Of a stretch of DNA of 64,000 bases, positions 61,439 to 64,000 are shown one piece after another. The position numbers and the translations under genes are program-made. The notes under the pieces are model-generated. The model saw only the letters and a program-made list of their open reading frames with translations, had not been told where the DNA came from and made no database searches. Each line of letters begins with the position of its first letter. Within the stretch, counting starts at the first letter, position 1. The DNA comes from Porphyromonas gulae DSM 15663. GTDB taxonomy: Bacteria; Bacteroidota; Bacteroidia; Bacteroidales; Porphyromonadaceae. The stretch is taken from contig NZ_KB899154.1 of assembly GCF_000378065.1 (NCBI RefSeq), positions 1 to 64,000 of the forward strand, in the 5' to 3' direction.

Positions 61439-61601
61439 ATGCCCTATAACCACCAAATACGCACCAAAAAACTTTTCAACAACGAAGACGAGTTTGGAAT
61501 CATTCTAAATAAGCGTCTGAAAAGAACTCCACTTTGACACTCAACAGATAAGTAAGCAAATATTTTCTGTTCGAAATTCGCTTTTCAGAAACTCATTCAA
61601 C

Positions 61602-61709
61602 GATCTATATATAAAGCATTTTCAATTTATATATAGATCGTTTTCGATTTATATACAAATAGTTTTCAATAAATATATAAATCAAAACTCGTTTATATAT
61701 AAATCACCC
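61602..61709. repeat. AT-rich 22-bp tandem array, about five units
   Basis: Units GATCTATATATAAAGCATTTTC, AATTTATATATAGATCG.., GATTTATATACAAATAG.., AATAAATATATAAATC.. and GTTTATATATAAATC.. follow each other at 22, 22, 22 and 23 bp. The array is different in sequence from the ones at 44941 and 57686 but has the same period. Confidence 0.8.
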
Positions 61710-61743
61710 TATCAAAAAAGGCCATCTACGATCTGATATAAAT

Positions 61744-61785
61744 AAGGCGTCCGCCATGTTCGACTGCGAACATGGCGGATGCCTT
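61744..61785. terminator. Long hairpin, 19-bp stem
   Basis: AAGGCGTCCGCCATGTTCG and CGAACATGGCGGATGCCTT pair over 19 bp with one G-T type mismatch and a 4-nt loop. On the minus strand it lies 42 bp after the small membrane ORF and is followed by TTATTTAT, so it probably ends that transcript. Confidence 0.65.
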
Positions 61786-61826
61786 AACATATTTAGAGGA
61801 CAATTTCTCCTATTCTCTTTTACACA

Positions 61827-62010: not shown

Positions 62011-62126
62011 AAAAAACAACCTCAAATAATAAGTATTAGAATCGATTCAAAAAAACACTTTTAACGGTATATCAATACAGTATTCAGAAAAAACACCAAC
62101 AATAGAACAAAACAAAATAAAACCCC

Positions 62127-62134
62127 TATATTTG
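62127..62134 (+). promoter_or_regulatory. -7 promoter box for the TIR-SIR2 gene
   Basis: TATATTTG matches TAnnTTTG and ends 13 bp before the ATG, predicting a very short leader. Confidence 0.55.
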
Positions 62135-62147
62135 CAAAAAAAGAAAC

Positions 62148-63470
62148 ATGAAGATTTACATAAGTGGCTGCAAAGAAGATAGAGAATATATAGAAAAAAT
62201 TTCTCAAGCTTTAAAAAATGAAGCTCATGAAGTTTTTGATCTCTTTTCATCCATAAGCATCTTTGGAAAGTCAATCCATAAACAAGTATTAGATGCGATA
62301 AAAGAGAGTGATGTTTTCATTTTTCTAATAAGCAAAAACTCAATTTGTACAGAGTACACATCAAAAGAATGGTTTTTGATTCTATTAGGCAACACGTCAA
62401 ACAGAAAATCAAATATAATACCTGTATTAATAGATCAAGCTAAAATACCTAAATATTTGTATGGGTATAACTGTATTTATTTACACAAAAGCCTTGAAAG
62501 AGGAATAAGAAAAATACTCTCCTTTTTATCAAATTACTCCCACATACAAGAAGCAGAAAAAATCAAAGTTACAAGGGAGGACAATAGTAAATTCATTTCA
62601 GAATTATCTCAAGCGTTGAAAAATGGAAAACTAACTTTAGTTTCAGGTGCAGGAACCTCAATAGCAGCGGGTATGCCATCTTGGAATAATCTATTGACCA
62701 GATTAACTAAACACATGGCCGAAAGATTATCTAAGGAACAGAAAAATCCGTCATTAGAAAATCTAAATCATTTCATAGAAGAATCTAAATTATCACCGTT
62801 AATACGAGTAAAATACATTAAGTATATTCTGGATAATGATTTTACAAAAAAAATACGGAATGAATTATATATATCAAATCCAAAAACTTGTGATATAATT
62901 GAAGCAATTGTCGATTTAGCAAGACCTAGACGAGAATCAAAGTCTTTAGATTCAATCATAACATTCAATTTTGACTCCTTAGTAGAAGAAAACCTAGAAA
63001 AAAACAATATTAAGTATAAGGCCATTTATATGGAAGGGATGCGTAGTAGCCCACTTGAATTACCTATATACCATGTGCATGGATACTTACCACGAAAAGG
63101 AAGAATTACGAAGAACAATAAAATTGTTTTTAGCGAAGATACCTATCACAACCTATTTATAGATCCATTTAGCTGGTCTAACCTAATTTTACTAAACAAA
63201 TTAAGTCAAAACACATGTCTTTTTTTGGGCTTGAGTATGACTGACCCAAATTTGAGAAGGTTATTAGATATTGCAAATAGAAGAAATCCTTCTAATTCAT
63301 TAAATCATTTTATCATTAAAGATAAGCCACAAAGAATAAACAAAAAAGAAGAAGACAGATTACCTCTATTTTTAATCGAAAGAGACTTTAATGAATTAGG
63401 ATTAAATACAATATGGATTGAAGACTTCAAAGAAATTCCCGATATATTGACAAGAATAGGGAACGAGTGA
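62148..63470 (+). CDS. TIR-SIR2 fusion protein, probable NAD-consuming anti-phage defence
   Basis: The 440-residue protein joins a TIR domain (about residues 1-130) to a SIR2 domain (about 145-440). In the TIR part, KIYISGCKEDREYIEKIS forms the first strand and loop, and E74 in ICTEYTSKEW is at the position of the catalytic glutamate of NAD-cleaving TIRs. The SIR2 part has SGAGTSIAAGMPSW (166-179), TFNFDSLVEENL with N274, the catalytic HG in YHVHGYLP (H311) and LGLSMTDPNLRRLL (361-374). Both domain types serve in bacterial immunity by degrading NAD or making signals from it. No signal peptide or membrane helix is seen. The gene is far more AT-rich than the core genome, which suggests transfer. 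Confidence 0.88.
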   Translation: MKIYISGCKEDREYIEKISQALKNEAHEVFDLFSSISIFGKSIHKQVLDAIKESDVFIFLISKNSICTEYTSKEWFLILLGNTSNRKSNIIPVLIDQAKIPKYLYGYNCIYLHKSLERGIRKILSFLSNYSHIQEAEKIKVTREDNSKFISELSQALKNGKLTLVSGAGTSIAAGMPSWNNLLTRLTKHMAERLSKEQKNPSLENLNHFIEESKLSPLIRVKYIKYILDNDFTKKIRNELYISNPKTCDIIEAIVDLARPRRESKSLDSIITFNFDSLVEENLEKNNIKYKAIYMEGMRSSPLELPIYHVHGYLPRKGRITKNNKIVFSEDTYHNLFIDPFSWSNLILLNKLSQNTCLFLGLSMTDPNLRRLLDIANRRNPSNSLNHFIIKDKPQRINKKEEDRLPLFLIERDFNELGLNTIWIEDFKEIPDILTRIGNE

Positions 63471-64000
63471 TCTTATTAAAGACTTCATACGCATATTTGG
63501 TCTTACTTAAACCCAGATTTGTCGTTAGGTCTTACTTTTCTAATGGCAGCCATTAGAGATTTTCTTTGTAATCTGCTTAATAACTGCTACTTGTCTTCTT
63601 ATAAAAATCACATCTACATCCTAATTTCATCTCACCAATCGGTTGATGTGAAGTACATGCTTATTCTAGACATAACTCTTTTTCCTTCAAAGCAATAAGT
63701 AGTGCCTCGATTCTATATGCTATTCTCAAATGACCAATCTGGATTAAAGTCTACGTTTGCTTTTATTCCAAACTATCTATATTACGGCTCATCGACATAT
63801 TACGTTTATTTTGGCATATTCCGACAAGGAGGTATTTGTATAGAGGTGTTCCATCCGTTTTTAGTCCTCTCATCAAAAAACATTAAGTATATCATCCTTT
63901 TACATTGCCAAATAGAGAAAGTACTCCGTGTCGCATAGGCGACATTTCAGGCGGATAGCAGCTTCTACTTTTGTGTCATCAAAGAACAACGATCGATTAA
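63471..64000. other. AT-rich tail of the window, 530 bp, no gene recognised
   Basis: A small hairpin (CTAATGGCAGCCATTAG, near 63540) follows the TIR-SIR2 gene. A 78-codon frame at 63702-63938 has no family features. TACTTTTG at 63966-63973 is a -7 box that may serve a gene starting beyond the window. Confidence 0.5.

Follow-up and report, generated by a model that had tools for sequence, protein, structure and literature searches.

The window, i.e. the whole stretch of 64,000 nucleotides analyzed here (positions 1 to 64,000 of contig NZ_KB899154.1 of Porphyromonas gulae DSM 15663), contains close to its right end a gene for a single protein chain with an N-terminal TIR domain and a C-terminal SIR2 domain. 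The features of the locus are as follows, G006 being the genome of the closest relative.

62031 to 63893, no strand: strain-specific segment with the fusion gene, between the ends of homology to G006
62127 to 62134, plus strand: TATATTTG, 14 bases 5' of the start codon, weakly resembling the Bacteroidota -7 box
62148 to 63470, plus strand: TIR-SIR2 fusion gene, 440 amino acids; intact ORF with TIR_2 and SIR2_2 Pfam matches and an AlphaFold model
62148 to 62540, plus strand: TIR domain, residues 1-131, with the catalytic glutamate E74 (62367-62369); SPARTA TIR match
62541 to 62585, plus strand: low-confidence linker, about residues 132-146 (pLDDT below 50 at residues 134-143)
62586 to 63467, plus strand: SIR2 domain, residues 147-440; BcThsA and KomC structure matches
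63507 to 63749, minus strand: decayed repeat 3' of the fusion gene, part of which matches the ORF L144:1793-2056 in the relative

The upstream neighbor of the fusion gene is a flavodoxin-like gene (60746), and the downstream neighbor, found by reading past the window end, is a hydroxylamine-reductase-like gene whose start is at contig position 64025; thus neither side of the fusion gene holds a partner gene, as the original prediction had stated for the 530 bp downstream. With 29.9% GC and 25% GC3, versus 48.2% GC for the window, the composition of the fusion gene upholds the horizontal transfer proposed from it. The consensus of the Bacteroidota -7 box is TAnnTTTG; no TTTG -33 box was seen upstream of the -7-like box of the fusion gene.

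Homology to the closest relative stops at 62030 in the left flank and restarts at 63894 in the right one. In the relative about 180 kb separates these flanks, and hence no precise empty site can be demonstrated; the fusion gene lies at a rearrangement point, within a strain-specific segment, and is followed by the decayed repeat, whose partial match in the relative resembles a transposase fragment, as judged by eye. The shared left flank holds different cargo in the relative, as expected for a variable site: the gene group L143:2105-7000, which consists of a dynamin-like GTPase (identified by motif), two more proteins and a HerA-like ATPase at the site of the fusion gene, and which is a possible uncharacterized defense cluster. 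A dispersed, MITE-like intergenic repeat of about 250-330 bp is found upstream of the fusion gene (61455-61787), with dozens of copies, at roughly 70-80%, in the relative's genome.

Among 26 genomes of the genus, the fusion gene is present only in the P. gulae genome of the window. The same genome encodes a second TIR protein (L175:73-1674 on contig C3; 533 amino acids, C-terminal TIR), which adjoins an ATPase gene, and a second SIR2_2 protein (G000:C20:24022-24381, minus strand, in an 817-aa frame).

Both domains were recognized by Pfam above the gathering score, TIR_2 over residues 3-123 (E=2.3e-15) and SIR2_2 over residues 269-401 (E=6e-19). An initial structure model built on three sequences had a low pLDDT of 52 and was dropped; the AlphaFold model built from 34 family members has a mean pLDDT of 84.4 and a pTM of 0.76 and contains no third domain. 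Compared with solved structures, residues 1-131 match the SPARTA TIR domain (8i87; Z 18.4, rmsd 1.9 A over 131 residues), confirming the TIR fold on which the original prediction had been made to depend, and the SIR2 half matches BcThsA (8bto; Z 27.7) and KomC (9xvc; Z 27.0), followed by DSR2, SPARSA and Avs5. All these closest solved structures are antiphage NADases; human FAM118B also matches the SIR2 half (Z 18.9). E74 of the TIR domain and GAGTS (167-171), N274 (62967-62969) and H311 (63078-63080) of the SIR2 domain occupy the places claimed for them, so that two NAD-using folds with their key residues are indeed kept in one chain. No match to the model was found in a viral structure library at E<=0.001.

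In the sequence profile of the family, the SIR2 half matches ThsA proteins, KomC and DSR2, and the TIR half matches Toll-like receptors as well as bacterial TIR proteins, among them AbTIR, TcpB and Cat1; none of the 25 matched chains covers both halves in its best stretch.

Two further full-length members (49% and 41% identity) were found in an order-wide sample. Scans of genomes and viral contigs with a single sequence yielded no homologs; an alignment query then succeeded, yielding 77 loci from named genomes plus three from viral contigs, from which duplicates were removed. The full TIR-SIR2 order is present in 34 non-duplicate members. The 29 fusions from named genomes span nine phyla: Bacteroidota (9), Bacillota (7), Pseudomonadota (6), Thermodesulfobacteriota (2), Ignavibacteriota, Chloroflexota, Actinomycetota, Acidobacteriota and Armatimonadota. 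The rarity of the fusion implied by the original prediction was therefore wrong; this is a widespread if patchy family. With 34 distinct members in nine phyla, a sequencing or fusion artifact is ruled out, and so is a one-off chimera. Phage and plasmid records gave SIR2-only or partial matches and no full fusion.

Pfam recognizes SIR2_2 in all 34 fusions and TIR_2 in 32 of them. The SIR2 asparagine and histidine and both GxG glycines are invariant (34/34), the asparagine and histidine being present also in all 42 other family members. The TIR glutamate at the position of E74 ranks among the six most conserved TIR positions and is kept in 32 fusions, the exceptions having glutamine (Noviherbaspirillum) or lysine (phage contig L119). 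Mean identity among the fusions is 32% for the TIR halves and 53% for the SIR2 halves. The distances for the two halves are correlated (r=0.77; none of 2000 permutations gave a value as high), which indicates that the halves travel as one unit.

In a tree of SIR2 domains, the 34 fusions and two TIR-less members, one from Ammoniphilus (intact, alone) and one from Competibacteraceae (at a contig end), form one clade (SH-aLRT 98). Phyla are mixed within it, Vibrio for example grouping with Desulfosediminicola, and the gene has thus moved between phyla. Nearest to the window protein, though weakly supported (84), are the three phage copies. In sister clades the N-terminus is either short or PD-(D/E)xK-like, the latter showing the motif D..GP..hEhK as judged by eye. 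This is a quick tree whose deep branches should not be taken as firm.

The neighborhoods of the homologs vary from locus to locus, and no conserved partner gene was found among them. In all three viral contigs the fusion follows a CI-type repressor (phrog_4) either immediately or one gene later; in one contig a Sie-like exclusion gene separates the two. CII-type activators lie on the other side of the fusion (match scanned on L118 and L119). Cargo beside cI in P2-related phages is known as an antiviral hotspot (PMC9122126). A TIR-less SIR2 gene of the same wider family was seen among morphogenesis and baseplate genes of a P2-like prophage in E. coli LR-45 (L150:4280-5485).

Among cellular genomes, the fusion of Duganella (L024) immediately follows a 2TM gene (PDC-M50) and has ThsB-type TIR genes on both sides; Halomonas (L030) has a PDC-S66-type TIR gene whose end is about 20 bases 5' of the fusion; and Noviherbaspirillum has a CBASS cyclase gene beginning about 2.1 kb 3' of it. 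The island-type fusion loci are L024, L029 and L030, whereas at most of the 29 cellular loci the fusion is apart from any recognized defense gene. Scans of the neighborhoods, in which families and not genes are reported, returned the defense genes listed above, and control regions returned mainly generic helicases and candidate families. The predicted association with defense is supported by the prophage immunity-region loci of the three phage contigs and by the Duganella, Halomonas and Noviherbaspirillum islands, while at most other loci the gene is alone; the island enrichment is accordingly no more than suggestive.

The island of Duganella sp. SG902 (L024:2807-8240) contains several TIR genes, a SLOG-like gene (judged by eye), a ThsB-plus-2TM pair (PDC-M50) and the TIR-SIR2 gene. 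In Pseudomonas fluorescens PS655, a TIR gene (L082:7373-8317; bSEFIR / PDC-S66-like) is located 3' of a nuclease-like-SIR2 gene, a Thoeris-like order.

We compared the fusion with known systems. It uses the same two enzyme families as Thoeris, and its SIR2 fold has the catalytic asparagine and histidine of ThsA; but its TIR domain is N-terminal to SIR2, whereas ThsA is a SIR2-SLOG NADase and ThsB a separate TIR protein, and ThsB-type TIR genes adjoin two fusion homologs only. The ThsA model of PADLOC matches the fusion (E=2e-27) at model positions 4-275 of 478 only, and the chain ends at residue 440; the SLOG domain is absent. No ThsB gene is found between the flavodoxin-like gene and the genes beyond the window end, and ThsB_TIR is above the cut-off nowhere in the P. 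gulae genome. Membership in Thoeris is ruled out by the lack of SLOG and of a ThsB neighbor.

The TIR domain is a close structural match to that of SPARTA (TIR-APAZ with a short pAgo), but the fusion has SIR2 instead; unlike SPARTA and SPARSA, it has no residues left for APAZ and no pAgo neighbor. Its SIR2 half resembles KomC, the stand-alone SIR2 filament NADase of Kongming (KomB HAM-KomC SIR2), but no HAM-type KomB gene is present at the P. gulae locus, a TIR domain being fused instead. DSR1, DSR2 and Avs5 (SIR2-STAND) similarly have the SIR2 executioner fold within one protein, but these chains are longer, with SIR2 at the front and a large sensor behind it, while the fusion has SIR2 last and a 131-residue TIR domain in front. 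At 440 amino acids it does not have the DSR1/DSR2 layout of an N-terminal SIR2 and a long C-terminal sensor (about 1000 amino acids or more), and its score with the Dsr1 model is 32 against a cut-off of 1400. Nor is there an adjacent HerA ATPase gene, as in the SIR2-HerA layout, at the P. gulae locus. The candidate PDC-S66 and ThsB-type TIR proteins of PADLOC, which adjoin the fusion in Halomonas and Duganella, have a related TIR domain but no SIR2. Human SIRal/FAM118B, an antiphage-like SIR2 protein linked to Toll-like receptor signaling (PMC13292451, PMC12700824), shares with the fusion the SIR2 fold and a functional tie between SIR2 and a TIR pathway; in vertebrates SIR2 and TIR are on separate proteins, whereas in these bacteria they are fused.

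In the open-access literature no report naming a TIR-SIR2 architecture was found, related papers describing TIR and SIR2 in separate proteins (an earlier description is possible in subscription papers). No model in PADLOC, Pfam or NCBIfam is named for it, and none in PADLOC or NCBIfam covers it. The family is apparently undescribed and recombines known parts. Bacterial immunity makes wide use of TIR and SIR2 as NAD-destroying domains, and both have relatives in animal innate immunity. The conservation of a natural fusion of the two in nine phyla provides good genomic evidence that they act together in one step, and makes the protein a one-gene test bed for the coupling of TIR activity to a sirtuin NADase.

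The fusion is probably a stand-alone, one-gene abortive-infection protein that protects against phages by depleting NAD+, with SIR2 as the executioner and TIR as the front module. As an NADase of the ThsA/KomC type, the C-terminal SIR2 domain would be the constant executioner; we read it so because the characterized bacterial relatives are NAD-depleting effectors and the catalytic residues never vary in the family. The N-terminal TIR domain would be an exchangeable front module responding to infection or to a partner. It would drive oligomerization and probably also cleave NAD+, a reading as trigger, oligomerizer and likely second NADase which follows from the glutamate being strongly but not absolutely kept; as two members have no TIR glutamate and two have no TIR domain, the TIR enzyme is not essential everywhere. 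On infection the fusion protein would assemble, both active sites would deplete NAD+, and the cell would halt before phage release. In favor of this explanation are the two folds with their conserved active-site residues, the single fusion family that has moved between phyla, the prophage and defense-island settings, and the different cargo beside the shared left flank in the closest relative. Against this explanation stand the position of the P. gulae copy at a rearrangement point beside a decayed repeat, its presence in one of 26 genomes of the genus, and the many lone loci.

The cis signaling from TIR to SIR2 that the original prediction had considered is possible but unsupported, and we regard it as unlikely. 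On infection, TIR would make an NAD-derived signal, a cyclic ADP-ribose isomer, which would directly switch on the SIR2 domain of the same or a neighboring chain via a non-SLOG site, replacing the SLOG domain of ThsA. The close likeness of the SIR2 half to ThsA in both the PADLOC and the structural comparison, the glutamate in 32 of 34 TIR domains, and the ThsB-type TIR genes next to the fusion in Duganella and Halomonas speak for such signaling. It is opposed by the absence of SLOG, the domain known to read TIR signals in ThsA, with the ThsA model matched over its first part only, by a structure model with no third domain, by the two members that have lost the TIR glutamate, and by Ammoniphilus, an intact member reduced to SIR2. 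If true, the two-gene Thoeris circuit would be condensed into one polypeptide, and a bridge would exist between the TIR and antiphage-SIR2 pathways, which vertebrates keep separate.

Two further explanations assign other roles to the domains, and we consider both rather improbable. According to one, the roles are reversed, with TIR acting as the NADase effector and SIR2 serving as sensor or regulator, similarly to CBASS and CRISPR effectors, which swap an N-terminal TIR or nuclease on a shared C-terminal sensor. The occurrence of the same SIR2 family with TIR, PD-(D/E)xK-like or short N-termini in separate clades of the SIR2 tree is consistent with this; yet the SIR2 asparagine and histidine are invariant in both sets (34/34 and 42/42) while two fusions have lost the TIR glutamate, TIR-less members exist, and SIR2 is the effector in the characterized relatives (ThsA, KomC and others). 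According to the other, of equal probability, TIR is mainly an adaptor: TIR-TIR contacts would recruit the fusion to a separate TIR sensor encoded nearby or elsewhere, SIR2 being the only enzyme that matters. TIR genes are directly adjacent in Halomonas and Duganella and lie beside the nuclease-like-SIR2 gene in P. fluorescens, the P. gulae genome has a second TIR protein, and the glutamate is lost in two members; most fusion loci, however, have no TIR neighbor, and the glutamate is otherwise strongly kept.

That the gene has no part in defense at all, and is instead an NAD-processing gene acquired horizontally for another role or carried along by a genome rearrangement, would fit its lone position beside a decayed repeat in P. 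gulae and the lone homologs, but is very unlikely given the intact ORF with all catalytic residues, the phage-borne copies beside cI, and the antiphage proteins that are its nearest structural relatives.

The SIR2 module can be regarded as a chassis with varied front ends, including TIR, nuclease-like and short N-termini. The proteins L047, L056, L061, L069, L082 and their relatives have SIR2 fused to a PD-(D/E)xK-like N-terminal domain unrecognized by Pfam, while the SIR2 proteins L046, L051 and L053 have an N-terminus which, judged by eye, resembles the IF2 N-domain of the translation initiation factor (LNKVLRDFNISLDRAIDFLASKG).
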